This document shows positions 2,087-53,063 of a stretch of DNA of 64,000 nucleotides, piece after piece. Where the stretch lies: NCBI GenBank assembly GCA_022801925.1, contig JAAWTG010000002.1:62001-126000 (forward strand), written 5' to 3'. Numbering within the stretch: the stretch's first letter is position 1; every line of letters begins with the position of its first letter. Position numbers and translations under genes: made by a program. The stretch is from Clostridia bacterium (lineage in GTDB: Bacteria > Bacillota > Clostridia > RUG12999). The notes beneath the pieces were generated by a model. The model was not told where the DNA came from. It saw nothing but the letters and a program-made list of their open reading frames with translations, and searched no databases.

Positions 2087-2166
2087 AAAAACAGAGGATA
2101 GTCTGAGAAAGCCAAAATGACATTTTTACGATATTGCATATAGGGAGAATGACTGGAGGGAGTCAA

Positions 2167-3753
2167 ATGAAGAAACAATTGCAGCAAGGCGGAATTTGGT
2201 GTTTGGCAGTTTTACTGGCTGCGGCAAGCTTGAGTGGCTGCGGCAATCAAGAAAATCGTGGCGGTGTGTCGGCGGAGAATGAGGCGCGGTATCCTATTAA
2301 AACAGAGGAATCGCTGACGTATTGGTGCAAATATTATTCCACGGATTTTGGAGCCGATTTGGGTGCAACACCATTTGGTGAAGAACTGCAGAAAAAAACA
2401 GGTGTGAAAGTGAATTATATTCACCCGACGACCGGCAGTGAAAAAGAAGAAATGAACCTAATGCTGGCATCGCGGAATTTACCCGATATCATTGAACATT
2501 CTTGGGTTTCTTTTGACGGCGGTCCGGAGAAAGCAATGAAAGAGGAATATATCATTGATTTAACGGAGGTCATCAATCAAAATGCACCCAATTACCGGAA
2601 TTATCTGGATCAAAACCCCGATATTGAAAAAATGGTGAAAACAGATGATGGGAAACACTATGTGTTTGCATTTATCCGCGGCAGCGAATTGCTTACTGTG
2701 TCGCAGGGACCTATTATTCGTAAAGATTGGTTGGAGGACTTGGGACTGGAAGTACCGGAGACGATTGATGAATGGGAAACAATGCTGCGGCGGTTTCGAG
2801 ACGAGAAAGGCGCACAGGCGCCGCTGAGTTATGATTTTTCGATAGGGCTTGGTGGAAAGTTTTTGGTCGGCAGCTATGGCGTCAAAAACAGTTTTTATCA
2901 AGAGAACGGCAGTGTAAAATATGGGCCCATTCAGCAGGGATATAAAGATTTTATCATGAAACTGCGGCAATGGTATCAGGAGGGGTTATTGGATCCCAGC
3001 TTTGCTAATGTGGATAGGGATATGACGGAAAGTAATATGCTCAATGGAAGAACCGGCGCGACTTATGGATATGGCGGCGGCAGCATTGGAACATGGATGA
3101 CACATAAAAAAGACGGAGATGCGTTTGATTTGGTCGGCGCGCCTTACCCCACTTTAAATAAAGGAGAAAAACCGATGTTCGGACAGCGGGAAGGGCGTTA
3201 CGTTTCCTATGGTTCGGCAGCAATTACCACTTCCTGCAAAAATGTTCCGTTGGCGGCGCAGTTTTTAGATTATGGATATTCTCAGGAAGGGCGTATCACA
3301 ATGAATTTTGGTATTGAAGACGTGAGTTACCGAATGGAGGAGGGAAATCCTGTTTATACGGATTTGATTACGCATAATCCGGAAGGGAAATCCATTTCCC
3401 AAATGTTCAAGGGATATATCAGGGAGGGGTATGGGCCATACATACAAGACGAACGGTATTTAAAACAATACTATACTTTGCCGCAGCAGTGGCAGGCAAT
3501 CAAACGCTGGGCAGATACCAATACGGTATTGTATGATATGCCACCCATCACCTGCACAGCGGAGGAAAGCGAAGAATTCAGTAAGATTATGGCGCAGGTA
3601 ACGCCTTACCAAACGCAGATACTGAGAGAATTCATCATGGGAGCGCAGCCGGTAGAAGCGTTTGATGATTATGTTGCGACAATTCAGTCCATGGGCATTG
3701 ACAGAGCAATTGAAATTAATCAGGCGGCGCTCAAACGGTATTATAATCGGTAA
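2167..3753 (+). CDS. Extracellular solute-binding lipoprotein, LplA-like (ABC sugar transporter)
   Basis: I start the gene at ATG 2167, preceded by GGAGGG at good spacing, and not at the in-frame TTG 33 nt upstream. The 528-residue product opens with a lipoprotein signal: KKQ, a hydrophobic stretch, then the lipobox LSGC, so the mature protein would be lipid-anchored outside the membrane. The remainder matches family 1 (LplA-type) solute-binding proteins of carbohydrate ABC importers, typical at about 500-550 residues. No permease or ATPase gene is in the window, so those may lie left of it or elsewhere. The next gene follows after 21 nt, suggesting co-transcription with the SLH proteins and a role in capturing oligosaccharides released by the surface lyase. 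The substrate is not determined by sequence alone. Confidence 0.85.
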   Translation: MKKQLQQGGIWCLAVLLAAASLSGCGNQENRGGVSAENEARYPIKTEESLTYWCKYYSTDFGADLGATPFGEELQKKTGVKVNYIHPTTGSEKEEMNLMLASRNLPDIIEHSWVSFDGGPEKAMKEEYIIDLTEVINQNAPNYRNYLDQNPDIEKMVKTDDGKHYVFAFIRGSELLTVSQGPIIRKDWLEDLGLEVPETIDEWETMLRRFRDEKGAQAPLSYDFSIGLGGKFLVGSYGVKNSFYQENGSVKYGPIQQGYKDFIMKLRQWYQEGLLDPSFANVDRDMTESNMLNGRTGATYGYGGGSIGTWMTHKKDGDAFDLVGAPYPTLNKGEKPMFGQREGRYVSYGSAAITTSCKNVPLAAQFLDYGYSQEGRITMNFGIEDVSYRMEEGNPVYTDLITHNPEGKSISQMFKGYIREGYGPYIQDERYLKQYYTLPQQWQAIKRWADTNTVLYDMPPITCTAEESEEFSKIMAQVTPYQTQILREFIMGAQPVEAFDDYVATIQSMGIDRAIEINQAALKRYYNR

Positions 3754-3774
3754 AAAGAGAGGGAGGAAAAAAGG

Positions 3775-6495
3775 ATGCAAAAAAAGATGAAACGGTCAAG
3801 AATTGCAGTGTGGGGACTGCTTATGAGTCTGCTTCTCTGCGCATTTTCGGGCATGACAGTGGGCGCGCAGTCTTTGGGCAGCAAGCAATTGTTGGATTTG
3901 CAAGCATTTGGTATTGTTGAGGGAAATGAACAGGGCGACTTGCAGCTAGAAGAAATGATTACACGTGCGGAGTTTTGCAAAGTGCTTGCGAGATTGGCGC
4001 GGATAGACCAGATAGGCGGCGTTATCCCAAGCCAGTTTCCTGATGTGCCGGCAAACCATTGGGCGGCGGGCTATATTGAAATGATGGTCTCGATGGGAAT
4101 TGTGAGCGGATATCCGGATGGGAATTTTTATCCGGACGTGCCGGTGGAATATGCGGAAGCGGTTTGTATGCTGGTTCGGATGCTTGGTTATGGGCAGGCG
4201 GCGGAGCAACTTGGCGGATATCCGCTGGGATATGTCACGCAAGGCGGGTCTCTGGGACTGCTGAAAAATGTAAATGGGAAAAATGAAACACCACTCACAC
4301 GCGAAGCGGCGTTTATTTTGGTGTATAATGCGTTGGATATTGAACGTTTGGTCTACACCGGTATGAGCGGAGCGGGAAACTATCAAATGGAAAAAGGCGA
4401 TACCTACCGTACTATTTTGATGGGGTATGGGGAAGATGAATTGATTCGGCTAAGTGGTGTCATCACAGGAACCTATGACACTTGGCTTGTGAAACCAAAT
4501 CAGCATATTGAGCCGTATCAAGTGGAACTCGACGGCGTAACGCTGGATATGGGGACGACGGATGCAGCGGACTATCTGGGGCAGAAGGTAGACCTTTTCG
4601 TGCAAGAAGATGAAAACAGCGGACGCTATGTGATTCGTTCCATTGTCCCCAGCCGTACCAATGTTATTTTGGAAACGGAAGTTGACGATATCATTAGTTT
4701 GGATACGTCTAAAATAGAATATGAAAACAAAGAGGGACAGAAGATTCGCGAAAGCATTGCAGCAGACCCTACCATTGTTTATAATGGTCTGTTTGTGCGC
4801 AGTTGGGAAGAAATAGACTTATCCTCCATGCAGGACGGTTCCATCAAAATGATTAGCAACGATGGTTCGGGCGTTTTTAATGTTGTTTTTGTGAATGAGT
4901 ATGAAAGTTTTGTGGTAGAGAGCGTCCGTACAGACAGCAGCCGCATCAATTTTATCGGCGACCAGCGTTTTCAAGGTCAGCGCGGCGTTTTGCTTCAGGA
5001 CGAGGACAACGACGATTTGAAAGCAACGCTAATGGATGCAAATGGAAATGAGATGAAACTGGAGGACGTAAAAAAGGACGATGTTGTGAGCATTTTTGCC
5101 GGCAGCGATGGGAATTTGATTCGCCTTTATGTAAACAGTAAGACGTTTAGCGGAACTGTAGAGGAAGTAAACAGTGAGGACGGAATCGTTGTGGTAGACG
5201 GACAATCCTATGATTTGGAGAAAAAAGCATATACCGGTTCCAAAGATATCTCCGCCATTATGGGCAAAGAAATCAAAGCATATCTCAACTTTGACGGAAA
5301 AATTGCGTATTGGAAAGAGGGAAATGACGCTAATAGCTATGGCGCAGTGGTAGAACTGTCCGCCGGTGGATTTGAAAAAGCGAGTGCGAAATTAGTGGTT
5401 GGCGATGTCCTGCTGGATACGGTGGAAGAAGCGGGTGATGATTATAGCAATGATGTGCCAGCGATTACCGCGCAGAACAAAGACATTCTCGTTTTGGATT
5501 TTGCAGCCAGAGTACGCTTTGATGGTGTAAGTTATACCGGAGCGGAGGCGGTCGGTAAATTACAGGAAAAAATGGGGCTGACGATAAAAGGGTATCCTGT
5601 GATGTATAAACTGAATGCGGAGGGAAAAATCAGGGAAATCAACACACCGGATAAGGTTGGAACGTATGAACTCGGTTCCGCACATGAAAAGGTATACAAT
5701 GCGCATGAAAAGACCTTCGGAAAAACCTCTGGTGGTGCGTTTGGCATTGAAAACAGCACTGTGGCAATTTGTGTGCCGGATCCGGATCCGAAAAAGAAAC
5801 AAGTCTCTTGTGATGAAGATTATCTTGCGCCTGTGGATTTGAACAACAACCAAAGCTATAAAGTGGAAGGATTTGAGTTTGACGAAGATACCAAGAGCGT
5901 GAAACTGATTGTGATAACCACAGAATTAGACCACACATCAACCGGTCATGTAACCTCGTCCAATAAGGTGGGAGTGGTATATGGTTCCTCCTATATCGCG
6001 AGTGAAGATGGCGACCAGATTCAAGTGGTTCACATGGTGACGGATAAAGGGGAACAGAAAATGGAGGTTTCCAACAGCACCACTAGTACGAGCAATTTCA
6101 AAGCGCTCAAACCGGGTCAGTTAATTCTCTATTCGCTGGACAATGAGGACAGATTGGACGGATATTCCCTTGTAGAGTCCGTTGACCCTGTGCCGGATCA
6201 TCGCTACAGTCAGGGAACGGATTTGGAATTGTTTATCGGTAAAATTCAGGATGTTTCTTATAACGAAGTGTCCGAGGAATTAAACCGCCGCGTGGATATT
6301 TTAACCATGACAACAAACTACGGCGCAGTACAAAATTATGAGGTGCAAAAGAGAAGCAGCCAGCCGGTTTATATCTATGACACAATAGAGAAAAAGGCGC
6401 ATCTGGGCAGCCATGAAGATTTTCTGTCAACCCATCAGGTTGCGCTGGTATATGTATCCTATAACAAAGTCAAAGCGGTTGTCATTGTGAAATAA
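3775..6495 (+). CDS. Secreted SLH-domain surface protein, function of large C-terminal region unknown
   Basis: The 906-residue protein starts at ATG 3775 behind a strong GGGAGG site. It has a signal peptide (basic start, hydrophobic core, cleavage near VGA-QS). Three SLH repeats fill about residues 40-195: LQAFGIVEG...MITRAEF, then FPDVPANHWAAGYIE...GIVSGYPDGNFYPDV, then a divergent third ending in PLTREAAFILVYNAL. These bind secondary cell-wall polymer and hold the protein in the S-layer. From residue 200 to the end there are many short beta-rich segments rich in D, V and G (for example SGVITGTYD, SGTVEEVNSEDGIVVVDG), resembling S-layer scaffold proteins. I recognise no catalytic motif. N-terminal SLH placement differs from the two following genes, where SLH repeats are C-terminal. 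It may be a structural or docking component of the surface complex. Confidence 0.85.
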   Translation: MQKKMKRSRIAVWGLLMSLLLCAFSGMTVGAQSLGSKQLLDLQAFGIVEGNEQGDLQLEEMITRAEFCKVLARLARIDQIGGVIPSQFPDVPANHWAAGYIEMMVSMGIVSGYPDGNFYPDVPVEYAEAVCMLVRMLGYGQAAEQLGGYPLGYVTQGGSLGLLKNVNGKNETPLTREAAFILVYNALDIERLVYTGMSGAGNYQMEKGDTYRTILMGYGEDELIRLSGVITGTYDTWLVKPNQHIEPYQVELDGVTLDMGTTDAADYLGQKVDLFVQEDENSGRYVIRSIVPSRTNVILETEVDDIISLDTSKIEYENKEGQKIRESIAADPTIVYNGLFVRSWEEIDLSSMQDGSIKMISNDGSGVFNVVFVNEYESFVVESVRTDSSRINFIGDQRFQGQRGVLLQDEDNDDLKATLMDANGNEMKLEDVKKDDVVSIFAGSDGNLIRLYVNSKTFSGTVEEVNSEDGIVVVDGQSYDLEKKAYTGSKDISAIMGKEIKAYLNFDGKIAYWKEGNDANSYGAVVELSAGGFEKASAKLVVGDVLLDTVEEAGDDYSNDVPAITAQNKDILVLDFAARVRFDGVSYTGAEAVGKLQEKMGLTIKGYPVMYKLNAEGKIREINTPDKVGTYELGSAHEKVYNAHEKTFGKTSGGAFGIENSTVAICVPDPDPKKKQVSCDEDYLAPVDLNNNQSYKVEGFEFDEDTKSVKLIVITTELDHTSTGHVTSSNKVGVVYGSSYIASEDGDQIQVVHMVTDKGEQKMEVSNSTTSTSNFKALKPGQLILYSLDNEDRLDGYSLVESVDPVPDHRYSQGTDLELFIGKIQDVSYNEVSEELNRRVDILTMTTNYGAVQNYEVQKRSSQPVYIYDTIEKKAHLGSHEDFLSTHQVALVYVSYNKVKAVVIVK

Positions 6496-6520
6496 TAGGA
6501 GTAGAGGAGGAAAAGAGACA

Positions 6521-9500
6521 ATGAAAAAGAAATGTTTCAGTCTGTTGCTCGTGGTTTCAATGGTTTTGACCGCACTGCCGGTGGCATTTGCAGCAGGACC
6601 ATATACGCCGGCAACTGATACGGCTGCGCCGGAAACCACATATATAGAAGAAGAACTGACAAACGAATATTATGCATTGCCAAACCATGAGAATTTATTA
6701 AATGGTATTATGCATCCGACAGATGACTTGGAATATATCGTTTCAAGTACGGCAGACACTAGAGAAAAATGTACGAAAAACTACTTGAGCGATACATTTC
6801 CTTATATAAAACTGGGGATTTCTGGTTCTATGACTTCAGCAGCAATGATGAATAAGCTGGGGTTAGAAAAATTATTTTCCTATCCCAGCAATCCGGAAGA
6901 AGTAACGTCAAAACAATTGCAGCTGAATTATTCTTTGACGAATAACCAACCAATTTATTTTGCGTTTGACTTGGCACATGCCGATGAAAAAAAGCAGGTG
7001 GGTTCAGGAACGCCGAAATATTTTAACCGTGTTTCTATTGCGGGATCCAGTGGAAATCATAATCCGACGACCAAAAACAGATGGAATTATATTGATGAAT
7101 GGAAATTGAATATCACCGATGACGCGGATAAGTTTGTGGGAACAACCAGTGAGCGCCCGGGTGCAGAAACGGCAAATACGGTTGAAAATTGGAAAACAAT
7201 TTATCAAAATAATACAGGGGAAAACATTTGGGATAAGGCTGGGACAGTAAAAATAAACAGCATTATGAAATCCAGATATCTCATGTTGGAAGTGGACAAT
7301 GTCACATGCGAGGCAAACGGAGCAACATCTTCTTTAGCGCAATCTAATTTCCGTTTCACCGGCTTTCAAGTCTATCTGGAAGATGTTGTTGCAAAAGACA
7401 GCGGATATACATTGAATGCCAGAGAAAAAACAGTTGTGCTGGAAGATAATCCGGCAGTATCGGCGTTCTTAAACAACCTGGAACTACAGGACGCAAATCT
7501 GCAAGCAGGCGTTTTCACAGACACCGCAGCGTCCACAGAGAAAACAGGCAATGTTGCAAATGGCAATTATCTGATTACTTATTTTGAAAACGACGGCGCA
7601 AAAGAAATCGTCAGCGTTTATGCTATCACAGCGCCGCAAACGCAGGAACCCGAAGAAACACCAACAGCGACGCCAACATCTACACCAACAGCGACGCCAA
7701 CACCAACGCCAACGCAGCCGCCGGCAACGTCAAATGACCATGCATTTACGCCTGATTCAGAGGGAATGCCCGCAACCAATTATGTGTCTGAAGAATTAAC
7801 AGACAGTTATTACACGATTCCTACCTATCATGACTTGCTGCATCATATCATTCAGCCATCGGACAATGCAAAATATATGAATCCATCGGAAAGTTCACCG
7901 GCGGCATTGATAAATTATCCTTATATTAAGGTGGGCGGCGGAAGAGCGGAACTGTTTAACAACAAAATTTCCTCGGGAAGTGATTTGACCGCAATTTTTC
8001 AGAACTTGCCCGGTAAAAAACTACAATTGAATTTTCCAACAGGTATGGCACCCATCTATTTTGCCTTTGACCTTGCACATGAAGAGGTAAAAGCTGGACA
8101 GGAAGGACAGCCGAAATATTTTAACCGTGTTTCCGTGGCGGGACATAAAGACAATGCGACGAACGGTTCCAAACAACCCTATATTTCGGATTGGAAACTA
8201 AATATCAGCAATACGGAAAGTGCTTTTGTAGAAGCGACTACAGCAGACGCTGCTTCAGCGGCAATTACCAATCCGGCATGGAAAACCATTTATGCAGCGA
8301 CGGCGGATGAAACGATATGCGGAGAGGCGGCTACTGTAAAAACGGACAGCATTATTCAGTCCCGCTACCTTATGGTAGAAATGGGCAAATTTAACTTCAA
8401 AGTGGGCAGTACGCCGACAAACTTGCGTTTAACTGGTTTTCAGGTCTATTTGGAAGATATTGTGTCGAATGACGGGAACTATGTTGTAGACGCAAAATCC
8501 AAATTACTGAAATTGACGGATGGATCTAATCTTCCTACTGTTACGGATTTTCTCGGCAAATTTACGTTGCAAGACGCAAAACTGCACATGGGCGTCTTTT
8601 CTGATGCGGCAGGACAGACGGAAAAACAGGCTTCTGCACAAATTGAGCCGGGACAGGATTGTTTGATTACTTATTTTGGCGAAGGAGCAAGCAAAGAAAT
8701 TGTCAGCGTTTATGATATTAACTTTCCGGTACCACGCGTGGAAAACGTTGTGATAAACGCAGCGGCAGGAACAGATGTGGGCGATGAAGTGTCGCTTACC
8801 TATCAATTCCAAGACTGTGATACGGCGGCAGGGCATACAGACCAGAGTGTCATTCAGTGGTATGCAGACGGCGCGCTGATTGACGGCGCGACCGGAACGA
8901 AATATACACTGCGCACGGAGGATATCGGTAAGAATATCACGGCAGAAGTGATTCCAAACTGCGGCGCATTCCAAGGGAAAACCGTAGCAAGCGCCGCTCC
9001 GTCAGCGACAATAAAAAGAATTGTGGTTGGCAATCTAATGCCGGGGGCAAGTGTGACAGAGGTGGAAAATTGCGAAGCGGAAGCAATCTCTTCCATGCTG
9101 AAAGGGTTTGCGGCAGATACCGGCACGGTGAATGCGGCTGCAAACACCATACGGCTGCGCGCAAAATTGGGCGATAGCCGTTGGGTAACCAGTTTTCATC
9201 TGGCGACAACTGTAAGTGATAAAATGACAGGCTATGAAATTGTTGGCTATTTGAACGGTGCAGCGGTGCCGGTGGACTCGTCTGCAGCAAGCGGCGGCGG
9301 AACCGTTTCAAAACAACTGGCAACGCCTTGCTGTATCGATGAAATCGAGGTGAAAGTGCAGTCTGCCGGAGACGGCGTACAAAAATTGGGCGTTGAACGT
9401 TTTGAAATTTTCAGCAATTTGACAGATGCGCTGGCAGTGAGCCTTGATAAACAAAATTTGACGATTCCGGACGCGAACGCAGTGGTAAGCGATTTGACGC

Positions 9501-11077
9501 TGCCCGCTGTGGGCGCGGCGTATACCGCTATCCGGTGGACGTCTTCTGATGAAAGTATTATTACCGGTGACGGAAAAGTGAAGGTGCCGTTTAGCAGGCA
9601 GCCGCATGACGTGACAATGACAGCGGTTATCACGCGCGGCAGTGAGTCAGCTACCGTACAAATTCCACTCAAAGTATATGGCTTGGATCAATTCCAGATG
9701 CCGCCCAAAGACGGTGTGGGAGAGAATTTGACTTTATTTAGCGTTGTGACCGGTGAAGGAGAACTGAAACCTGGCAGCACGGCGGCGATGGCAGCAGATG
9801 GCAAAGGCACCACCGGCTGGATTGCAAAAGTGACAGAAGACACGAAACCGTCACTGACTGTAGATTTTGGTATGGAACGTGAAATAAACCGGCTGCGTGC
9901 GGCAGAAACCATGAATGGTATCCATTATGCCATTGCCGGTTATACCGTTACCACTTCAAATGATGGGATAACATGGAATCCGCTGCTAAGCGGAACGGAA
10001 ATCGGAGAAATTTTTGATAAATCATTTGATGTCGTGGAATGCAGATATGTGAAATTTACGATTACTGCGCTGAAAGAAAATGCAGTATATGGCGGAATTC
10101 GAGAACTAGAACTCTATTTTGAGCCGGCAGCAAGCGACATCATAAAAATGGAAGAAGAAGCGGTCACGCTGCATCTGCCTTATATGATTGCTGCGGATAA
10201 AGTGGAACTGCCCCAGCCTAAATATGGCGCGACGTTCCATTGGATAACGGAAAACAATCTCATTGCAGATGACGGCACAGTAACGCACCCGAAAGAAGAT
10301 ACCAAAGTAACCTTGTCGCTGCAAATCAGCCGTGACGGTGTGTCGGTCACAAAATCCTTTGGACAATTTTTGATTACCGGCACGGATAAGAAAACGGTTG
10401 GCAGTCTTGCCGGCAGCAGCGGCGGTGGTCGCGGCAGCAGCAGTGGCAGTGCAGGAGGACTTGGCATATTAGGCAATGCCCCGCAGGTTGCTGCGCCACA
10501 GCAGCCAAATGAAACGGCGGCAGGGTTTGACGATGTACCAAAAACCCATTGGGCAAGCGGATATATTGCGGATTTATCCATCAAAGGAATTTTGTCCGGT
10601 GTGTCGCAAAATCGGTTTGCGCCCGAAGAAGCGGTCACGCGGGAACAGATGGCAAAACTGTTGGTATGCGCCTTTGAAGTGCCGGTGGCAAGCGGGACAA
10701 ATCCGTTTACGGACGTGCCGTCGGGCGACTGGTCGGCGGATTATATCCGCAGGGCAGCGGAGAGCGGATTGCTGCGCGGGATAGAGGACGGTATTTTCGG
10801 TCTGGGCAGCAACATGTCCCGTCAGGATGTTGCGGTTGCCATTGTCCGAGTGTTGGAGCAGAGCGGACTTGTGCTGCAAGAAGGCAATATGGACGCGTTT
10901 ACGGATGCCGATGAGATTGACGAATATGCAAAAGCCGCAGTTGCAAAATTATATAAAGCGGGCGTGATGGTTGGCGACGACCTTGGTAGCTTCCGACCGG
11001 CGGCTGAAGTGACCCGCGCAGAGGCAGCAAAAATTGTTTATGTAGCGATAAGACTTGCGTCAGGGAGCGGTGAATAA
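6521..11077 (+). CDS. SLH-anchored multidomain surface protein with duplicated carbohydrate-binding-like modules
   Basis: The 1,518-residue protein has a signal peptide (cleavage near AFAA-GP). Two homologous modules of about 330 residues follow, at roughly 40-370 and 410-745. Both carry IYFAFDLAH, PKYFNRVS, SRYLM and TGFQVYLED, and they are separated by a Thr-Pro linker at about 377-403. Next come an Ig-like segment (about 745-840), a discoidin-like region, an atrophied Ig-like domain (IRWTSSDESIITGDGKVK), a clear F5/8 type C domain (about 1067-1205; TVDFG, RYVKFTI), a second atrophied Ig-like domain, a Gly/Ser hinge and three SLH repeats at about 1337-1515. No catalytic centre is visible, so a role in holding polysaccharide at the cell surface is inferred. 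The stop codon overlaps the start of the lyase gene, so translation is probably coupled. Confidence 0.85.
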   Translation: MKKKCFSLLLVVSMVLTALPVAFAAGPYTPATDTAAPETTYIEEELTNEYYALPNHENLLNGIMHPTDDLEYIVSSTADTREKCTKNYLSDTFPYIKLGISGSMTSAAMMNKLGLEKLFSYPSNPEEVTSKQLQLNYSLTNNQPIYFAFDLAHADEKKQVGSGTPKYFNRVSIAGSSGNHNPTTKNRWNYIDEWKLNITDDADKFVGTTSERPGAETANTVENWKTIYQNNTGENIWDKAGTVKINSIMKSRYLMLEVDNVTCEANGATSSLAQSNFRFTGFQVYLEDVVAKDSGYTLNAREKTVVLEDNPAVSAFLNNLELQDANLQAGVFTDTAASTEKTGNVANGNYLITYFENDGAKEIVSVYAITAPQTQEPEETPTATPTSTPTATPTPTPTQPPATSNDHAFTPDSEGMPATNYVSEELTDSYYTIPTYHDLLHHIIQPSDNAKYMNPSESSPAALINYPYIKVGGGRAELFNNKISSGSDLTAIFQNLPGKKLQLNFPTGMAPIYFAFDLAHEEVKAGQEGQPKYFNRVSVAGHKDNATNGSKQPYISDWKLNISNTESAFVEATTADAASAAITNPAWKTIYAATADETICGEAATVKTDSIIQSRYLMVEMGKFNFKVGSTPTNLRLTGFQVYLEDIVSNDGNYVVDAKSKLLKLTDGSNLPTVTDFLGKFTLQDAKLHMGVFSDAAGQTEKQASAQIEPGQDCLITYFGEGASKEIVSVYDINFPVPRVENVVINAAAGTDVGDEVSLTYQFQDCDTAAGHTDQSVIQWYADGALIDGATGTKYTLRTEDIGKNITAEVIPNCGAFQGKTVASAAPSATIKRIVVGNLMPGASVTEVENCEAEAISSMLKGFAADTGTVNAAANTIRLRAKLGDSRWVTSFHLATTVSDKMTGYEIVGYLNGAAVPVDSSAASGGGTVSKQLATPCCIDEIEVKVQSAGDGVQKLGVERFEIFSNLTDALAVSLDKQNLTIPDANAVVSDLTLPAVGAAYTAIRWTSSDESIITGDGKVKVPFSRQPHDVTMTAVITRGSESATVQIPLKVYGLDQFQMPPKDGVGENLTLFSVVTGEGELKPGSTAAMAADGKGTTGWIAKVTEDTKPSLTVDFGMEREINRLRAAETMNGIHYAIAGYTVTTSNDGITWNPLLSGTEIGEIFDKSFDVVECRYVKFTITALKENAVYGGIRELELYFEPAASDIIKMEEEAVTLHLPYMIAADKVELPQPKYGATFHWITENNLIADDGTVTHPKEDTKVTLSLQISRDGVSVTKSFGQFLITGTDKKTVGSLAGSSGGGRGSSSGSAGGLGILGNAPQVAAPQQPNETAAGFDDVPKTHWASGYIADLSIKGILSGVSQNRFAPEEAVTREQMAKLLVCAFEVPVASGTNPFTDVPSGDWSADYIRRAAESGLLRGIEDGIFGLGSNMSRQDVAVAIVRVLEQSGLVLQEGNMDAFTDADEIDEYAKAAVAKLYKAGVMVGDDLGSFRPAAEVTRAEAAKIVYVAIRLASGSGE

Positions 11078-14000
11078 TGATGAAAAAAAGAGTATTAGCA
11101 ATCTTGCTCTGTATGGCGATATATCTTGTGCCGATGGCAGCGCTGGCGCAGGATACCGCGGAGGAGAATCCGCAGCAATTGCGTGATGCGGTGGAAGAAC
11201 TGGTGATGTCAGGCGGGGAAATTGTCGTAGGCAACGCGGCGGCAACCGAGCAAGCTGCAGAGGAAGAAGCAGAAAAAGAAGATGCAGAGCAGCCGGAGGA
11301 AACGGCAGCAGTGCAGGATAAGGGAGTGGCGGCGCAGGAACAAGTGGAGTCCGTTCTTTCTGTGGAAGCGCAAGAGAGTGGCAGTGTGAATGCGGCAAGT
11401 ACTTCGAGCGACTTGAATCTGCAAACAACCTTCAACTTGGATGAATATGACTTTTCAGACCCCAGCACAAAAGGGCTGGAACGATTCCCGACAGATGAAG
11501 AATTTTTCGGTGTATGGGACGAATCCAAAGGAACATTTGCAAAAGCCCCCATTTTGGACTATAGCTATATATCAAACTATGGTTTGACGCTCCACGCGGT
11601 GGAGGAAGCGGCAAAAGCGGGAGACTATCCCACAGCAAAAGCGGAACTGCAAAAATACTATAATGCCAAAGTGGAGAAACGCGGTCTTTCCAAACTGGGG
11701 AGCAACAGTCAATATGAAATCATGGTGGCGCAGCTTTTACTGCAAAACTTCCACTTTAACGGAAACAGCAACCACAATGTGGCGGATATTTTCTACATGG
11801 GCAGTGAATGGGCGCCGGTTTATGTGGAAATGAAATCTCAAATTAACCGCTTTAAATCGCGCGGCGACAAAATGATGCCAATTACCATTTGCGCCGTGAA
11901 CAAAGACGACTACGAAGCGGAGTTCTATAGCAAAGAGCATCCGGATGCAGGGCCGGAGGTGCTTGGAAAATCTGCTTATCTGGAGGTACAAATCGGTAGC
12001 ACCATGCGCCGCATTCCGGTGAGCGAAGATACTTATACGGCGGCGGGAGAATACCGCAGTCAGAACTTCGGCGCAGAATCATATCTCTATGCGCGGGAGG
12101 CGGCAATTGGTGAAGTAGACCCAGTTAATTCCGATACGCGGCGAACTTTTTTGAAATTCAATCTCAGCGATATCGGCGCCTCAGATACCATCACCTCGGC
12201 GCGGCTGGTTTTATGGGGACGTTGGGTAGATAAGGCAGATACGCCGCGGGGCGACATGTCCTATCAAAAACGGATGACAGCGATTACCAACTACGATACA
12301 GGTTGGACGGAGAATGAATTATATTTCAATGATACCTCTCACACCAATGCGATTTTCTCCTATGATGGGGAATGGGGTACCAAATGGGTGCAGCCGAATA
12401 AAGACCGCTGCAATCCGCTGGCGCGTTTTGAAGAAGAACTGTTTCGGTTTAGCGGATGGTTTGACAAACTGTGTGCCCAGTATCAATATACAGGGAACGA
12501 AATCTATGCACGCACAGCATTTATGTATTTGCACAACTGGATAACAACCACCTACCTCCGCTACCGCGGCTGTCCCGAAGTGCCGGACCCATCGGGCAAC
12601 GGAAACGCGTCCAAGCTGAAATACGGCGGATACAGCAAAGCGCTGGATATGTATACCAGAACAACAAACCTGACAAGATATATTGAATATTTATACGGCA
12701 GTGAATACATGACGCCGGAATTGTTTACCACTTTTTTGAAATATATGTACAGCATGGGACGGGTATTTTCCACGTATTGGACGAGTCAGGAAAAAACCAA
12801 CAACTGGGGTTCCGCTTCCTGTAACGGATTCTTCCAGTTAATCGGTCACTATCCGGAATTCCGCGAATCGGAAGCATGGACGGTTATCATGATGAACCGT
12901 TTGGAGGAAATCACAGGGAACATTTTGTATGATGACGGCGCTTGTATTGAACTGGCGCATGGATATACACAGTATACCATTGGAACGCTGATATCCACAA
13001 AAAATGCGGCGGATACGTTGGGCGTGGAAGTCAATTATACAGATAGTATCAAACAGAAACTTTTGACTTTGACAAGATATCTCATGTATTCCACAGCGCC
13101 GGGCTGGCGGGATAGTCAAGAGGGGGATTCCCACACATTCAGCACTAGCTATAAAAGCAATATCAAACAGATAGCCGACTGGCTGGGCGACCCGCATCTG
13201 CTTTGGGCGGCATATGATGGGAAAAAGGGTGAAGCACCAGATTTCACCTCTCTCATCTATCCAATCAGCAGCAAAGCCTATATGCGCAGCGGCTGGGGCA
13301 GCAACGACTTATATTTGGCAATGAGTGCGGACGCCAGCCAAGGGTCGCACGGACATTGGGACGACAACAATGTGATTGTGGCGGCATATGGGAACTATCT
13401 GCTGTCCGACCAACTATATTATATGCTCAGCGGAGGACAGGATTTAACCTGCCGCTGGCTGTTCTCCTCGCGCGCACATAATACCATGCAAATCAATGAT
13501 TATTGCCAAAAAGCGGCAAAATCCGTATATGATCCAACTTTGCCGCTGGGCGGCAGCATGGGAACGATTGAGGAATGGGAAACAAACAGCGGATATGATT
13601 TTAACAGAATGTCGTCGGAAAACTATAAAAACATCACCTACCGCGGCGCACCGAAACTGTTGCCTGCCAAAGGCGATGAAGTGCCGCCGACAGAACCGGG
13701 TATGGACTATAGCCGCAGTATTTTGTTTGTCCGTCCGAATTTCTGGATTTTGTCCGATTATATGAATCCGGTAGATAAAGAAAAAGTCAATAAATATACG
13801 CAGCTTTGGCACATGACGCCGGGTGCCAACATGAGCATTGACGGTCAGTATCAATTGCAGAAAGGTGAAACGGTCGGAAATGTGAACGACGGCGCAGTGG
13901 ACAGCGTGATTGAAAACACACAGTTTGTGCCGGGCACCGGAAACGGTACCATTCGTTCCAACTTTGAAAACAAGGCGAACATCATGGTGGTTCCGGCGGA

Positions 14001-15396
14001 TATATCGAGTGTGGAACCCAAAATGCTGCGCGGTCTATATTCAGAAGGAACAGGAAGCCAGCAGCGGACGCCGTATGCATTGTTTGAGAAGAACATTCAG
14101 GGTACCACGACCATGGATACCATTTTGTTTCCGCAGGAAAGCGGGCGGGATTATTCGATTGAATCTACGCCGCAGCAGACAGGACAGCGGCAGGGCGCGG
14201 CGTCTGCGTTCAGCGCGGTGGTGAAAGATGCGTCCGGCAAGTCCAATGACAACTATCGTTTTGACTATTATTTGCTGCACGAACAAGACCAACAAAAAGC
14301 GGTGATGGTTGGCAATACGGCAACAGACGGAAAACTGATGTACTATGAAAAAGATTTAAACACAGGACGTCCCAGCCGGGCGATTCTACGTGGCGGTACC
14401 TATGTCAGAGACCTTGCGGGCGGTATGACAGCAGTGAAAAGTGAACAGCCGCTGGAGGAATTTACCGTGACTTGGGAAAACACGGTGCTGAAGCTGGAGA
14501 CCTCCAAAGATATGACTGAGTTGCTGGAGGGCGTGAACATTCATTCGCCGGTTGAAGTGAAAAGCGTGTTGCTCAATGGAGAAGCGGTTCCGTTCTACTA
14601 TGCGGATGGCTATGTTTGCTTTGATATGGAAAACAGACCTATTATTACACCAACGCCGCAGCCGACCGGCGGAAACAATGGAAATGGTTCCATGTCGCAC
14701 GGCAGCAGTGGTGGCGGTGGTGGAGGAAAAATGCCGTCGTTGCCGGTGGTGACGCCATCTCCGGTAACCCCAACTGTGACGCCGAATCCCGAGACCAATT
14801 CGGGTACGGAACCGGTGGGACCGCAGGTTCCGCCGGAAATTCGGTTGAAACAAGAAGTGACGGGACATTGGGGTGAGACAGAAATAACGTCTCTCATTGA
14901 CAGCGGTATTGTAAAAGGCAGCAATGGAACGCTGGAATTGAGTGGGAGCGTATCAAGGGCTGAATTTACCGCTATGATTGTGCGTGCATTGAAGATGGAA
15001 ACTGCTGCATATGACGGCAGCATCGCAGATGTTCCGGCAGACGCGTGGTATGCAGCGGAATTGCAAGCGGCAGTGCAGGCGGGCATTTTGCAGGGAGACG
15101 GCGGCAAATTGCGGCCGGAGGATTCTATCACGCGGGAGGAAATGGCGAAAATTATCCTTGCGGCATACCGGCAGGCAGGCGGCGAAACTGCAGAAGGAGA
15201 ACCGATTATTTTTGCAGACGAAAACCAAATCAGCGACTGGGCGAAAGAGTCGGTGCAGCAGGCTGGGAAACTGGGACTGATTCGCGGCTTTGAAACAGGA
15301 GAGTTTAGACCGCGGGAAAATGCACAGCGTGAACAGGCAATGGTGATGATTTACCGCCTGGTGAATGGCACGGAACAAGGCGAAAATGAAGCATAA
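11077..15396 (+). CDS. SLH-anchored heparinase II/III-family polysaccharide lyase
   Basis: The 1,439-residue protein starts at ATG 11077, which shares a base with the previous stop; a second ATG follows at once. It has a signal peptide (AALAQ), an acidic Glu/Ala-rich segment and a lyase fold. A DNRLRE/CBM96-like beta domain lies at about residues 305-425 (VSEDTYTAAGEYRSQNFG ... RTFLKFNLSD). The alpha barrel follows, then the heparinase II/III C-terminal domain with its His-rich signature GSHGHWDDNN near 756 and SRAHNTMQIND near 798. A Pro/Gly linker and three SLH repeats (about 1258-1439) anchor it to the cell wall. Family members cleave uronate-containing polysaccharides (heparin, heparan, alginate and others) by beta-elimination. 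The exact substrate cannot be told here. It closes the operon and a terminator follows. Confidence 0.88.
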   Translation: MMKKRVLAILLCMAIYLVPMAALAQDTAEENPQQLRDAVEELVMSGGEIVVGNAAATEQAAEEEAEKEDAEQPEETAAVQDKGVAAQEQVESVLSVEAQESGSVNAASTSSDLNLQTTFNLDEYDFSDPSTKGLERFPTDEEFFGVWDESKGTFAKAPILDYSYISNYGLTLHAVEEAAKAGDYPTAKAELQKYYNAKVEKRGLSKLGSNSQYEIMVAQLLLQNFHFNGNSNHNVADIFYMGSEWAPVYVEMKSQINRFKSRGDKMMPITICAVNKDDYEAEFYSKEHPDAGPEVLGKSAYLEVQIGSTMRRIPVSEDTYTAAGEYRSQNFGAESYLYAREAAIGEVDPVNSDTRRTFLKFNLSDIGASDTITSARLVLWGRWVDKADTPRGDMSYQKRMTAITNYDTGWTENELYFNDTSHTNAIFSYDGEWGTKWVQPNKDRCNPLARFEEELFRFSGWFDKLCAQYQYTGNEIYARTAFMYLHNWITTTYLRYRGCPEVPDPSGNGNASKLKYGGYSKALDMYTRTTNLTRYIEYLYGSEYMTPELFTTFLKYMYSMGRVFSTYWTSQEKTNNWGSASCNGFFQLIGHYPEFRESEAWTVIMMNRLEEITGNILYDDGACIELAHGYTQYTIGTLISTKNAADTLGVEVNYTDSIKQKLLTLTRYLMYSTAPGWRDSQEGDSHTFSTSYKSNIKQIADWLGDPHLLWAAYDGKKGEAPDFTSLIYPISSKAYMRSGWGSNDLYLAMSADASQGSHGHWDDNNVIVAAYGNYLLSDQLYYMLSGGQDLTCRWLFSSRAHNTMQINDYCQKAAKSVYDPTLPLGGSMGTIEEWETNSGYDFNRMSSENYKNITYRGAPKLLPAKGDEVPPTEPGMDYSRSILFVRPNFWILSDYMNPVDKEKVNKYTQLWHMTPGANMSIDGQYQLQKGETVGNVNDGAVDSVIENTQFVPGTGNGTIRSNFENKANIMVVPADISSVEPKMLRGLYSEGTGSQQRTPYALFEKNIQGTTTMDTILFPQESGRDYSIESTPQQTGQRQGAASAFSAVVKDASGKSNDNYRFDYYLLHEQDQQKAVMVGNTATDGKLMYYEKDLNTGRPSRAILRGGTYVRDLAGGMTAVKSEQPLEEFTVTWENTVLKLETSKDMTELLEGVNIHSPVEVKSVLLNGEAVPFYYADGYVCFDMENRPIITPTPQPTGGNNGNGSMSHGSSGGGGGGKMPSLPVVTPSPVTPTVTPNPETNSGTEPVGPQVPPEIRLKQEVTGHWGETEITSLIDSGIVKGSNGTLELSGSVSRAEFTAMIVRALKMETAAYDGSIADVPADAWYAAELQAAVQAGILQGDGGKLRPEDSITREEMAKIILAAYRQAGGETAEGEPIIFADENQISDWAKESVQQAGKLGLIRGFETGEFRPRENAQREQAMVMIYRLVNGTEQGENEA

Positions 15397-15494: not shown

Positions 15495-15671
15495 CTATTT
15501 GAATTGATTTTGCTGCGGGTCATAGATAAAACCGGCGTTCTTCATCTTTTGTTCTAATTCTGTCTGGTCAACAGATAAATCATCACATAGGGCGCCTAAG
15601 TTATCGTAAAAATCACGAAGTTTTGTGTTGAGTACACTGAGCAAGAGCATGGGATCATTTGGCAATGTCAT
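15495..15671 (-). CDS. DUF4250 small protein (58 aa)
   Basis: The minus strand encodes MTLPNDPMLLLSVLNTKLRD and continues to DPQQNQFK, 58 residues, behind an AGGAGG site at ideal spacing. The start (LPNDPMLLLSVLNTKLRDFY), a central CDDL and the ending (DPQQNQF) match the DUF4250 family of about 60 residues that is common in Clostridia. Its function is unknown. It is a single-gene unit convergent with the lyase operon and shares the terminator. Confidence 0.85.
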   Translation of the reverse strand: MTLPNDPMLLLSVLNTKLRDFYDNLGALCDDLSVDQTELEQKMKNAGFIYDPQQNQFK

Positions 15672-15853
15672 GGGATATATCCTCCTTATGGAAATTTATA
15701 TTTCTATATTATATATAAGACGAAATATTTATGCAAGTGTGTAGTTTGGGGAGGATACTATGCTGAAAACTGGAAAAATTCAAAAAAAGAAAACTAAATG
15801 TGAAAAAATATAGAAAAAAATATAATTATATAGTAAAATGCACAAGAAATAGG

Positions 15854-15923: not shown

Positions 15924-18338
15924 ATGCTCATTGCCCATAAAGAAGAATTGACAGAGCGGCAGCAGTCTGTCAGAGAACACTGCGATAACGTGGAACTCCT
16001 GGCGCGGGCATATGGCAGCAAAATTGGAGTGGATGCTGCTGCCGGATTGATTGGAAAAGTGCATGACATGGGGAAATGCAAACAGGAATTTCAGAACTAT
16101 ATCTTAGGTATCAGCCATGCAAAACGGGGAGAAATTAACCACGCGGCGTGCGGCGCGCGTTATTTGGAAGAAACCTATGCACCAGGAGAATATGGCGGGA
16201 ATTTAACGGCGCAGATGTTGGCGTTGGCAGTGGAATCTCACCACGCCGGTTTGATTGATTGTATTAGTACAAAGGGGGAAAACACGTATCAAAACGGCGT
16301 ATGGAAGGACGCGGAAGTGCAATTTCAGGCGGCAGTGCAGACCTACCATCAGGAATGCGCCGGAGAAGCAGAATTGAAACAGGCGTTTGAACAAGCGGCA
16401 GTCCAGTTGGAGGAAAAAATGCGGGAGATACAGCATATGGGCGCGTTCGGAGAACATATGCTGGAAAAATATTTGTTTTCCTGTCTCATTGACGCAGACC
16501 GCTATGACACCTATTGTTTTGCAGCGGGAATAGAACCCAAGCCGGATTTCAAACCGGATAGGGCGTTTTGGGGAACCTATTTGGAACGGTTGGAAGCGGC
16601 GCTGGAGGATATGGCAAAACAGCAGCCGAAATCAGAAGGAGAACAAAAGGTGCGGCAGCTGCGGCAGGAAATATCGGATAGTTGCCGCGCATGGGCAAAG
16701 CGGGAGCCCGGTGTTTACCAGTTATATGTGCCGACCGGCGGCGGAAAAACGATCAGTTCCTTGCGCTATGCGCTGGCGCACTGCATGGAATATGAAAAAG
16801 AACATATTTTTTATGTTATACCCTATCAGACCATTATTGAACAAACCGTGCAGGAAATCAGGGACAAGCTTCAGGAGAACGATGAAACCATCATTTTGGA
16901 ACACCATGCCAATGTGATTCACGGAGCAGAAGAGGAAAAAACAGAGGAAGAAATACAAAAACAATATGAACGGCTGACAGAACGCTGGACGTCGCCGGTG
17001 ATTGTGACGACCATGGTGCAATTTTTGAACACATTGTTTGCAGGCAAGACGAGAAATCTTCGCCGTATGCACCAATTGGCAAATTCCGTGATTATTTTTG
17101 ACGAAATCCAGTCCATTCCGGTGAAATGTATTTATATGTTCAATGAGGCAGTCAATTTTTTAAGCGAGGTCTGCCATGCCACGGTTGTGCTTTGCACGGC
17201 GACCCAGCCCAAGCTGGAGGGAGTGGAGGAACATTCGCTGCGCCTCGCGCAGCCGGCGCAAATTGTGGAGGACTATTTGGATAAATTCCGGCAATTGAGT
17301 CGGGTCAAATTAGTGGATACAACGCGCTGGAAACCTGCCATGACATATGAAGATGCAGCGGATTTTGTGTGGGAGAAACATGAGGCGCTGCCGCATGTCT
17401 TGCTGGTGGTGAACACAAAGGCGGCAGCAAAAGAGATTTATCAGCGGTTGCAGGAAAAAAATCAAATGCTGCCTGCGGAGGAAGCGGCGGATATCATTTT
17501 GCTCACCACCTCTCTATGCGCTGCAGACCGGCTGGAGCGATTGAATGTCGTTAAAAAGACGCCTGCCGGAAAGAAATTGATTTGCGTCAGCACGCAGTTG
17601 ATTGAATGCGGCGTGGACTTGTCGTTTGACTGTGTGGTTCGTTCGCTGGCAGGGCTGGATAACGCGGCACAGTCCGCCGGACGCTGTAACCGGCATGGTG
17701 AAATGGGTTGCCGTGAGGTCTATTTGGTAAAATTGTGTGAGGAAAAATTAAATAAGTTGCCGGATATTCAAAAAGCGCAGGAAAGCTGTGAACGAGTGCT
17801 GAGAGAATTTGCAAAAAAGCCGGAATATTTTGGCGGCGATTTGCTTTCGCCCAAGGCGATAGCCTGCTACTATCATTATTATTACCATGAGCGAAAAAAT
17901 GAAATGGGATATTGGGCGGAGAAAAGCGACAGGGAAACGTTGTTCGGTATGCTTTCAGATAACAAAACTGCTTGTGGTGCATATACGCATGAGTCAAAAC
18001 AGCAAACACTTCCTGCAATGCGGCAAGCATTTGCGGAAGCGGGAGCAAAGTTTCATGTTATAGAGGACAATACCACGACAGTGTTGGTGCCGTTTAAAAA
18101 AGGGAAAGAGTATATCTTACAGTTGAACGGACAGTGCAGTCCGGAGGAAACTGTGAAATTAGCGCGGCGGGCGCAGCGGTATACGGTGCAGATATATCCG
18201 GGAGACTGGAACGAACTGGAGAAAAAAGGCGCGCTCTATCAATTAAATTATGGAAATATTTGGGCGCTCCACGATGAATATTATGACAGCGAACTTGGTG
18301 TGGTGCAGGACGCCGCGCTGAAAGAAATGATTTTTTAA
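15924..18338 (+). CDS. cas3: CRISPR-associated helicase/nuclease Cas3, type I-C
   Basis: The 804-residue protein combines an N-terminal HD nuclease with a superfamily 2 helicase. The HD pair is in VHDMGK at about residues 46-51. The Walker A motif is PTGGGKT near 269, the Walker B/DExH-box variant is IIFDEIQ near 390, CTATQPK forms motif III and QSAGRCNRHGE forms motif VI. Cas3 is recruited by Cascade to the displaced DNA strand and degrades it. Length and order (first gene before cas5-cas8c-cas7) are typical of type I-C. A consensus promoter precedes it and cas5 follows after 56 nt. All key motifs are present, so the enzyme should be functional. Confidence 0.95.
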   Translation: MLIAHKEELTERQQSVREHCDNVELLARAYGSKIGVDAAAGLIGKVHDMGKCKQEFQNYILGISHAKRGEINHAACGARYLEETYAPGEYGGNLTAQMLALAVESHHAGLIDCISTKGENTYQNGVWKDAEVQFQAAVQTYHQECAGEAELKQAFEQAAVQLEEKMREIQHMGAFGEHMLEKYLFSCLIDADRYDTYCFAAGIEPKPDFKPDRAFWGTYLERLEAALEDMAKQQPKSEGEQKVRQLRQEISDSCRAWAKREPGVYQLYVPTGGGKTISSLRYALAHCMEYEKEHIFYVIPYQTIIEQTVQEIRDKLQENDETIILEHHANVIHGAEEEKTEEEIQKQYERLTERWTSPVIVTTMVQFLNTLFAGKTRNLRRMHQLANSVIIFDEIQSIPVKCIYMFNEAVNFLSEVCHATVVLCTATQPKLEGVEEHSLRLAQPAQIVEDYLDKFRQLSRVKLVDTTRWKPAMTYEDAADFVWEKHEALPHVLLVVNTKAAAKEIYQRLQEKNQMLPAEEAADIILLTTSLCAADRLERLNVVKKTPAGKKLICVSTQLIECGVDLSFDCVVRSLAGLDNAAQSAGRCNRHGEMGCREVYLVKLCEEKLNKLPDIQKAQESCERVLREFAKKPEYFGGDLLSPKAIACYYHYYYHERKNEMGYWAEKSDRETLFGMLSDNKTACGAYTHESKQQTLPAMRQAFAEAGAKFHVIEDNTTTVLVPFKKGKEYILQLNGQCSPEETVKLARRAQRYTVQIYPGDWNELEKKGALYQLNYGNIWALHDEYYDSELGVVQDAALKEMIF

Positions 18339-18394
18339 CATGAAGTATGGGAGGAAGCAAACCTTCTGTATGAAAAGAAAGGAAGTGCATTTCC

Positions 18395-19114
18395 ATGGAA
18401 TATGAAAACAAAATTTGTTTCCGGTTGTTTGGGCGGGAGGCTCTGTTCACAGACCCTGTAACCAAAACGGGCGGAGAAAAATGCACCTACTCCATTCCCA
18501 CTTATCAGGCGCTGAAAGGGATAACGGAATCCATTTACTGGAAACCTACGTTCATTTGGTATATTGACCGGCTGCGCGTGATGAAACCCATTCGCACGCA
18601 GGCGAAGGGAATGCGCATAATGAAATATCAGGAGGATAAAAACGATTTATCCATTTATACCTATTTGCGCGACGTGGAATATCATGTGGAAGCGCATTTT
18701 GAGTGGAATGAGCAGCGACCGGAATTGGCGGCAGACCGCAACGAAAACAAGCACTATCTCATTGCAAAACGAATGCTGGAACGCGGCGGACGGCGCGATA
18801 TTTTTCTGGGGTGCCGCGAATGTCAGGGCTATGTGGAACCGTGTAGCTTTGACGAAGGAGAAAGCCCCTATGACCAGCTGGAAGAACTGCCGCTGGGGTG
18901 GATGGTGCACGGCATTTTCTATCCTGATGAAACGGGAAGGGATTCTATGGAAACGCGCCTATGGAAACCGGTGATGCGCTATGGTTGTGTGGAATTTATC
19001 CGTCCGGAGGCGTGTAGCGTCGTGCAGCAAACCAGAAAAATGTCGCCCAAAAAATTCGGTAGCGGTAATTTTTCCGGATTGCAGGAGTTTGAAGGGGGAG
19101 GGGAAGGCATTTGA
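18395..19114 (+). CDS. cas5c: Cas5c (Cas5d), crRNA-processing Cascade subunit, type I-C
   Basis: The 239-residue protein begins KICFRLFGREALFTDPVTK and contains YSIPTYQALKGI, the conserved N-terminal pattern of type I-C Cas5. In this subtype Cas5 replaces Cas6 and cuts pre-crRNA at the base of the repeat hairpin, then stays on the 5' handle. No cas6 gene is present, which fits. The stop overlaps the TTG start of cas8c by 4 nt, so translation is coupled. A GGAAGTG ribosome site precedes the ATG. Confidence 0.93.
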   Translation: MEYENKICFRLFGREALFTDPVTKTGGEKCTYSIPTYQALKGITESIYWKPTFIWYIDRLRVMKPIRTQAKGMRIMKYQEDKNDLSIYTYLRDVEYHVEAHFEWNEQRPELAADRNENKHYLIAKRMLERGGRRDIFLGCRECQGYVEPCSFDEGESPYDQLEELPLGWMVHGIFYPDETGRDSMETRLWKPVMRYGCVEFIRPEACSVVQQTRKMSPKKFGSGNFSGLQEFEGGGEGI

Positions 19115-21078: not shown

Positions 21079-21096
21079 AGAAAGGGGTACAAAATC

Positions 21097-21939
21097 ATGG
21101 GAGCATTACAAAACAAAATTGACTTTGGTGTGGTATTTACAGTGAGAATGGCGAATCCAAACGGCGACCCGCTCAACGGCAACCAGCCGCGGGTGGACTA
21201 TGACGGCTATGGGGAAGTGTCCGATGTTTGTATCAAGCGGAAAATCCGCAACCGTTTGCAGGATATGGGCGAGCGGATTTTTGTGCAGTCGGACGAACGC
21301 AAAGATGATGGCTGCAAAAGCCTGAAAGACAGAGCGGATAGCTGTGCGGCATTACAAGAGGCGAAAAAGAGCAAAGATGCGGATTTGTTTGCAAACATTG
21401 CGTGTGAACAGTGGATAGATGTGCGTTCGTTCGGACAGGTATTTGCGTTTAAGGGCGACCCGCTCTCTGTGGGGGTGCGCGGGCCGGTATCTTTGCAGAC
21501 GGCGGTTAGCGTGCAGCCTATTGAAATGTCCAGTATGCAGATTACCAAAAGCGTGAACAGCGTCACCGGAGACAAAAAATCTTCTGATACCATGGGAATG
21601 AAACACCGTGTAGATTTTGGCGTTTACGTTTTTTATGGCAGCATTAACCCGCAGTTGGCAGAGAAAACAGGTTTTTCGGAGGAAGACAGCGAAAAAGTAA
21701 AACAGGCGATATGCACGTTGTTTGAAAACGATTGTTCCTCGGCGCGTCCGGACGGCAGCATGGAGATACAAAAAGTGTGCTGGTGGAAACATAATTGTAA
21801 ATCGGGACAATATTCTTCCGCCAAAGTACATGGTTGTTTGAAGGTTGCGCTGAAAGAGGAAGCAAAATCGGGACGCAGCATAGAGGACTATGAAATCCGT
21901 GTGGAACATTTGGATGGGCTTGAGATGGAAGAACTATGA
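21097..21939 (+). CDS. cas7: Cas7 (Csd2), crRNA backbone subunit, type I-C
   Basis: The 280-residue protein contains KIDFGVVFTVRMANPNGDPL at its start, the typical Cas7/Csd2 RRM opening, and MKHRVDFGVYVFYGSINPQ in the middle. Several copies of this subunit form the filament along the crRNA spacer. An AAAGGGG site precedes the ATG. The stop overlaps the cas4 start by 4 nt (ATGA). Confidence 0.95.
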   Translation: MGALQNKIDFGVVFTVRMANPNGDPLNGNQPRVDYDGYGEVSDVCIKRKIRNRLQDMGERIFVQSDERKDDGCKSLKDRADSCAALQEAKKSKDADLFANIACEQWIDVRSFGQVFAFKGDPLSVGVRGPVSLQTAVSVQPIEMSSMQITKSVNSVTGDKKSSDTMGMKHRVDFGVYVFYGSINPQLAEKTGFSEEDSEKVKQAICTLFENDCSSARPDGSMEIQKVCWWKHNCKSGQYSSAKVHGCLKVALKEEAKSGRSIEDYEIRVEHLDGLEMEEL

Positions 21940-22598: not shown

Positions 22599-22600
22599 AT

Positions 22601-23632: not shown

Positions 23633-23644
23633 AGGGAGAAAATC

Positions 23645-23935
23645 ATGCTGGTGTTAATTACTTATGACGTTAATACACAGACTGCCGAAGGACGACGGCG
23701 GCTGCGCAAAGTGGCAAAGGAATGTGTGAATTATGGACAGCGGGTGCAGAATTCTGTGTTTGAATGCATTCTGGAAACGGCAAAATGCAAAGAATTACAG
23801 CATAAACTGTGCCAAATCATTGATGAAGAGACGGATAGCCTGCGTTTTTACTATTTGGGAAAGAATTATCGTAGCAAGGTGGAACATTTTGGGGCAAAAG
23901 AAACCTTTGACTTGGAGGGACCGTTGATATTGTAG
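23645..23935 (+). CDS. cas2: Cas2, CRISPR adaptation
   Basis: The 96-residue protein starts MLVLITYDVNTQTAEG, with the conserved Asp of the ferredoxin-like fold, and has the RVQNSVFEC and LRFYYLG segments of type I-C Cas2. It dimerises between Cas1 dimers to hold prespacer DNA. It has a GGGAGA ribosome site and is the last cas gene, 239 nt before the first repeat. Confidence 0.96.
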   Translation: MLVLITYDVNTQTAEGRRRLRKVAKECVNYGQRVQNSVFECILETAKCKELQHKLCQIIDEETDSLRFYYLGKNYRSKVEHFGAKETFDLEGPLIL

Positions 23936-52949: not shown

Positions 52950-53063
52950 GCGGTTTGGTTGGTGTTTTAGGTGGTGTCGTAGAAAAAATACTTGACTTGT
53001 AATAGTCTTTAGAGTATTGTGTGTGTTGCCAAAAGGCGAATACAAAATGAAGGAAGTGATAGA

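Follow-up and report, generated by a model that had tools for sequence, protein, structure and literature searches.

Two described systems are among those closest to the locus reported here. In Bacteroides thetaiotaomicron, the use of heparin and heparan sulfate involves a surface PL12 enzyme, a PL15 enzyme and a surface glycan-binding protein (PMC9067506). In Clostridioides difficile, SlpA acts as a phage receptor, and its isoforms originate from cassette recombination (PMC12680318, PMC10100898).

We analyzed a stretch of 64,000 nucleotides from an uncultured member of the Clostridia (the window, at its full length), in which a surface protein with SLH domains carries two copies, A and B, of an unnamed module of predicted binding type that has been seen only in one genus. 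We consider it probable that the modules serve glycan capture for surface lyases and that the core of module A was exchanged as a unit by homologous recombination. Within this account, we infer both the glycan binding by the modules and the functional effect of the swap.

Gene neighborhood and layout of the surface protein

The gene lies in the following surroundings:

1 to 1671, + strand: AraC-family sensor-regulator, starting upstream of the window (Pfam HTH_18 and GGDEF_2; upstream part in L019)
2134 to 3753, + strand: sugar ABC solute-binding protein (Pfam SBP_bac_1)
3775 to 6495, + strand: SLH protein of 906 aa, the preceding gene (Pfam SLH)
6521 to 11077, + strand: SLH surface protein of 1518 aa with both modules (open reading frame; Pfam; two orthologues)
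11077 to 15396, + strand: SLH-anchored heparinase II/III-type lyase with a CBM96-like domain, the next gene (Pfam; 4mmh)

The first-pass annotation was correct in its coordinates and in placing a heparinase-type lyase next to the module gene; the best solved relative of this lyase is heparinase III 4mmh (E 1.4e-12). A further solute-binding protein and a DUF4962/Hepar lyase lie upstream of the window, and the latter matches the oligoalginate lyase 3a0o at E 1.5e-200, compared with E 3.6e-25 for the heparinase II/III-like 6lja. The oligoalginate lyase 3a0o belongs to family PL15. In the nearest relative, an extra SLH-domain gene (L017 14109-14999 to L018 3-998) stands between the AraC and solute-binding genes, an interval that is merely a gap of ~250 nt in the window.

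The rest of the window holds several features of its own. CRISPR-Cas genes (cas3, cas5d, csd1, cas7, cas4 and cas1), presumably of type I-C, occupy 15924-24612 together with a seven-copy repeat array at 24160-24612. A Peptidase M60 (enhancin-like) protein with dockerin, fn3 and F5/8C domains is encoded at 29663-34543, and a phage-type integrase at 53019-54278 makes a mobile element nearby possible. The window ends within a large SLH protein (59894-64000) that has polysaccharide lyase 8 and F5/8C domains, and genes near it encode a GDSL lipase (56656) and, at 57333, a glucuronyl-esterase-like protein.

Within the 1518-aa protein, whose orthologues in two other genomes of the genus are 1507 and 1530 aa long, Pfam detected three SLH domains, two aBig_2 domains and one F5_F8_type_C domain at aa 1085-1196. 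The SLH wall anchor occupies the C-terminus in three stretches, the best at aa 1460-1503 (E 9.7e-34). The region at aa 835-970 looked discoidin-like by eye and was dropped, as hhalign gave 0.7%. The N-terminal half is composed as follows:

6521 to 6595, + strand: probable signal peptide, aa 1-25 (read by eye: basic N-end, hydrophobic stretch, AFAA)
6626 to 7627, + strand: module copy A, aa 36-369, 334 aa (39% identity to copy B, E 3e-69)
6697 to 7351, + strand: segment of copy A interpreted as replaced, aa 59-277 (identity drop against the nearest genome, fourfold sites, trees)
6797 to 7381, + strand: predicted discoidin/CBM32-like sandwich of copy A, aa 93-287, model residues 58-252 (AlphaFold2, Foldseek, VIA)
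7382 to 7627, + strand: copy A tail (aa 288-369), probably repeat-like (hhalign, BLASTP)
7628 to 7765, + strand: inter-copy linker containing a Pro-Thr repeat (tandem units of 12 nt, 7658-7717)
7766 to 8719, + strand: module copy B, aa 416-733, 318 aa, conserved (core 190/191 identical to the nearest orthologue; DNA 918/954)

Because modules A and B are N-terminal and the SLH domains C-terminal, the modules should reach furthest from the wall, with copy A as the outermost part of the protein.

The first-pass annotation had described a two-copy duplication in an SLH surface protein, and our comparison upholds it. The two halves aligned in BLASTP with 140 of 355 residues identical (39%, 210 bits, E 3e-69), and the local alignment score was 538, compared with a mean of 36 for shuffled copies of B (sd 5.2, maximum 63; n=1000). 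The motifs that it had listed recur in the same order in both copies, namely IYFAFDLAH (aa 145 in A, 512 in B), PKYFNRVS (165, 531), SRYLM (251, 614) and TGFQVYLED (280, 638). Many invariant residues are common to the copies, whose long cores share 78 of 185 residues. Both A and B are present in each of three genomes of the genus, and the best explanation is that the duplication is older than the split of these genomes.

The size that it had proposed, about 330 residues, agrees with ours. It missed two points: each copy probably contains two domains, and copy A is radically different from its orthologue in the nearest relative within conserved surroundings. Each copy seems to be a composite of a discoidin-like sandwich and a tail of ~80 aa, and the tail is probably, by sequence similarity, a separate domain akin to a surface-protein repeat. 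The copy tails matched the tandem repeats of another protein of the nearest relative's genome in hhalign (74%, E 2.8e-5, 57 columns) and in BLASTP (E 7e-5), and a tail profile gave E 0.002. At E <= 0.001, a profile of this tandem repeat (~76 aa) found members in 5 of 41 genomes, and it did not recover the copy tails of the window's own genome or of the second relative. A profile of all six tails recovered only the three genomes of the genus among 60 at E <= 0.05, so that kinship to a general repeat is weak.

Fold and distribution of the module

Neither copy matched Pfam, NCBIfam or the PDB sequences above noise. Over the copies, the noise consisted of PDB matches on the Pro-Thr stretch (E 0.049) and to a polyadenylate-binding protein (E 0.33), and of rad23 at E 0.95. 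When the six copies of the three genomes were compared alone with Pfam, the sole match was SpaA in two of the six (best E 0.012, noise), and PF00754 gave no match over the copies at its cut-off, its one match in the protein being that at aa 1085-1196. Hence, as far as profile and sequence searches of these three collections can test it, the earlier statement that the module belongs to no nameable family holds.

The structural evidence came from models of modest quality. AlphaFold2 gave a weak model of copy A with the other five copies as the alignment (pLDDT 46, pTM 0.50) and no usable fold for the copy B core (pLDDT 29, pTM 0.21). Five PDB entries matched the copy A model in Foldseek at E <= 0.001, namely the chitosan-binding module 4zy9, BgaA 4cu9, 4a42 and 5zu6, both titled CBM32, and the nanoCLAMP 7rg7; their TM-scores by query were low (0.23-0.29). 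The pneumococcal hyaluronan-binding module 4d0q (CBM70) ranked 19th, and leukotoxins also appeared at a probability of about 0.1. In VIA, the best match was a CBM32 over model residues 59-251 with Z 8.5, a value to be read with care, since Z < 8 can mean merely a common arrangement and Z 7-8.5 lies in or near that range. The best 50 entries included many CBM32s as well as APC10, IFT25 and BIRC6, which have discoidin-type folds, and other related-fold families, such as the ephrin receptor and laminin/netrin domains, were also present among the VIA matches. A viral structure library gave weak matches, six of them at E <= 0.001, which were set aside.

Additionally, hhalign of the copies against 26 F5/8C domains taken from the window's genome returned a probability of 5-7%, with IYFAFDL...WKLNI in a plausible register. 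A divergent discoidin/CBM32-like beta-sandwich as the core of each copy is a prediction with moderate support. The very divergent discoidin fold suggested by the first-pass annotation gains from the PDB matches shown, which are mostly of CBM32/discoidin type, and loses from the weak model and the low profile probability.

Whole modules were found in three genomes, all of the window's genus, and in no other genome searched. A copy search of 99 related genomes found three at E <= 0.01 (the window's own genome, G001 and G002), class genomes gave 4/391 at E <= 0.001, and phylum genomes gave 1/398 at E <= 0.01, the own genome; the class, phylum and relative samples overlap, and therefore these counts are not additive. 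A contig search with part of copy A, restricted to close relatives, returned two loci (G001:C5 and G002:C324). The genome G128 had a tail-only match (E 4.4e-4) in a giant protein and was not counted as a module relative. In this ~1.1-Mb genome, contig C5 (L013) has an 18042-aa open frame that seems to encode a giant protein of surface type. No relative was found among plasmids and phages with copy A as the query, or among viral contigs with the alignment as the query. A literature search near the theme yielded nothing on this protein type among the matches listed, which is no proof of absence.

The divergent core of copy A

We compared the window's genome (G000, here W) with its nearest relative (G001:C5, here L001) and a second relative (G002:C324, here L002), and we append A or B for the module copy. 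W and L001 are colinear over ~70 kb and about 96% identical (1357 aligned windows of 150 nt, mean identity 0.96). Within 6697-7351, the DNA identity drops to 379 of 597 positions (63.5%), plus 104 gap columns, compared with 97.2% before the segment (171/176) and 96.0% after it in the gene (3554/3702). The edges are exact: the first difference is at 6697 and the last at 7351 (aa 59-277), and identical runs flank them at 6645-6696 (52 nt) and 7352-7409 (58 nt). L001 and L002 are 81.3% identical in the segment and 82.6% after it, as would be expected for vertical descent.

The proteins display the same pattern. The core is 103/201 identical (~51%) between WA and L001A, compared with 190/191 between WB and L001B, and 85% identical between L001A and L002A. 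Over the first domain of copy A (aa 26-290), W is 60% identical to L001 and 57% to L002, and L001 is 84% identical to L002. Across the other domains compared, with the signal peptide and linker left aside, W is 95-99% identical to L001 and 85-90% to L002, and the copy A tail is 96% identical between W and L001 and 76% between W and L002. By sequence comparison, the window's copy-A core is a third type, somewhat closer to A than to B. The three genomes hold two divergent types of copy-A core, and the search of relatives returned no other genome of the genus.

Silent sites and trees point in the same direction. Between W and L001, 30 of 42 fourfold-degenerate sites differ in the core, which is near saturation, compared with 72 of 628 in the rest of the gene (by part, 1/28, 8/56, 19/145 and 44/399). 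The corresponding counts between L001 and L002 are 46/88 (core), 66/130 (copy-B region) and 136/347 (aa 736-1518). The core tree joins L001A with L002A (support 0.998), but the tail tree joins WA with L001A (0.817, moderate), and the two trees disagree. Exact edges, silent sites saturated only inside them and discordant trees argue for import rather than point mutation, and sharp edges, conserved flanks and discordant trees are together the pattern by which we recognize recombinational allele replacement. These comparisons strongly support the interpretation of the copy-A segment as an imported divergent allele of one domain, acquired by homologous recombination. The simplest reading would be a single import on the window's branch; the replacement is known from one genome pair, and the donor was not found.

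We found no sign of switching by inversion or from a spare cassette. No inverted repeat of at least 18 nt (seed 12) was found in 6400-8900, and copy A used as a query against the own genome gave clear matches to A and B only, with no clear third copy. A match on the own-genome contig C14 (E 0.07) lies in a different protein and was dropped.

The drop stands out in the 70-kb comparison. Aligned 150-nt windows below 0.80 are confined to the copy A core and the adjacent Pro-Thr linker; windows at the end of the copy A tail and in the Pro-Thr linker are at 77-81%, and others at 81-85% lie near -53102, -51700 and -2550. Six stretches did not align, one of them within the copy A core. Three of the others (-30085 to -29798, 1676-1923 and 15549-15755) are without an open frame of at least 150 codons, and two (-52952 to -52553 and -47373 to -46999) coincide in part with the ends of frames that long. 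As a control, 30 F5/8C loci of G000 (of 40 matches) were compared with 30 loci of G001 (of 52 matches) and with G001 C5. After the exclusion of two loci without a match and three with the domain unaligned, 25 were left; identity in the domain trailed that of its flank by 10 points or more in 2 of the 25 (L029 and L053) and by 9 points in L047, with the caveat that some loci overlap or may pair with a paralogue. With 2 of 25 domains affected, domain-limited divergence is therefore not general in this genome.

One of these two domains belongs to a second F5/8C-rich, surface-type protein of the window's genome, on contig C55 (L092, ~3001-5850). It has a diverged block that holds all three of its detected F5/8C domains between flanks ~95% identical to G001; one 533-nt piece of the block is 81% identical, and part is unaligned. 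This block is a hint of recurrent domain replacement and no more. We tentatively raise the possibility, which we would not regard as probable, that the outermost binding domains of SLH glycan-capture proteins in this lineage of Clostridia are exchanged whole between strains, by homologous recombination at conserved edges, with the twin module and the anchor fixed. If so, strains could retune which glycan, phage or antibody recognizes the cell.

Proposed role and comparison with known systems

Overall, we provide a putative mechanism for the locus. The SLH domains would hold the C-terminus of the protein on the cell wall, and the modules would keep polysaccharide close to the next gene's product, the SLH-anchored lyase. 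The solute-binding protein or proteins would import the oligosaccharides, and the oligoalginate-lyase-like enzyme would finish them. Given the lyases of the locus and the Bacteroides precedent, the substrate is probably a uronic-acid polysaccharide, which may be of heparan or alginate type. After the split from the nearest relative, homologous recombination via the conserved flanks would have put a divergent allele in place of aa 59-277 of copy A, and copy B, the copy A tail and all other parts would have stayed as they were. The new tip surface would most likely alter what copy A binds or what recognizes the protein. The protein background is nearly constant and the one domain exists as two natural alleles, which form a ready-made pair for asking what such a bacterium gains from a change confined to the tip, be it a new glycan specificity or an escape from phage or antibody.

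The alternative that survives best, although we hold it unlikely, is that the modules are domains for protein or surface interaction (a phage receptor, immune target or adhesin) and that copy A was exchanged to escape recognition. The variable piece is the one most distant from the SLH anchor, and copy B hardly varies; C. difficile offers a precedent in SlpA, which serves as a phage receptor and has isoforms that arise by cassette recombination (PMC12680318). However, the gene lies among lyase, SLH and solute-binding genes, a setting that tends to favor glycan capture. It is very improbable that the divergent core is an assembly chimera in one genome. The records of the two relatives are metagenome-assembled genomes and the window's genome is in 96 contigs, but the reading frame is intact across both edges, the own genome holds no clear copy-A matches beyond A and B, and L001A agrees with L002, a separate genome. 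Slightly more doubtful still is the view of the modules as structural spacers without a ligand: the tail resembles a repeat, but the core is long, many of its residues are invariant between the copies and the predicted fold is of binding type. Least credible of all is rapid evolution of copy A by point mutation under relaxed or positive selection, without recombination: tandem copies can relax constraint on each other, but exact edges bordered by 52 and 58 identical nt, fourfold sites near saturation only inside (30/42 against 72/628), disagreeing trees and an L001A-L002A core still 85% identical all oppose it.

Read as glycan-capture modules of which one has an exchanged core, the copies can be set beside several known systems. 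They would share with the CBM32 or F5/F8 type C family (PF00754) the predicted beta-sandwich, and a DL-like strand and a W-K-L-N strand fall in a plausible register; the correspondence of SRYLM to the ARY(I/V)R strand of the family is our by-eye reading from the consensus, not the result of a tool. In contrast to that family, they have no Pfam match, and a sandwich of ~195 aa with an N-terminal extension of ~55 aa stands against 127 model positions. CBM70 (4d0q) and the BgaA modules (4cu9, 4cua and 4cub) are among the Foldseek matches for the copy A model, but at 7-11% identity and weak scores, and a relation at the sequence level was not detected.

Similar to SlpA, the protein is wall-anchored and would have had its variable part replaced by recombination. 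Unlike in SlpA, the change does not concern the main S-layer gene: it covers 219 aa of an SLH protein whose gene belongs to a polysaccharide locus, and it is a single event in one genome pair; the phage link is SlpA's. The BT4661 system (PMC9067506) would resemble our locus by role, in that it combines a surface binder with two lyases, one of them at the surface. The locus described here relies instead on SLH anchoring and ABC import.
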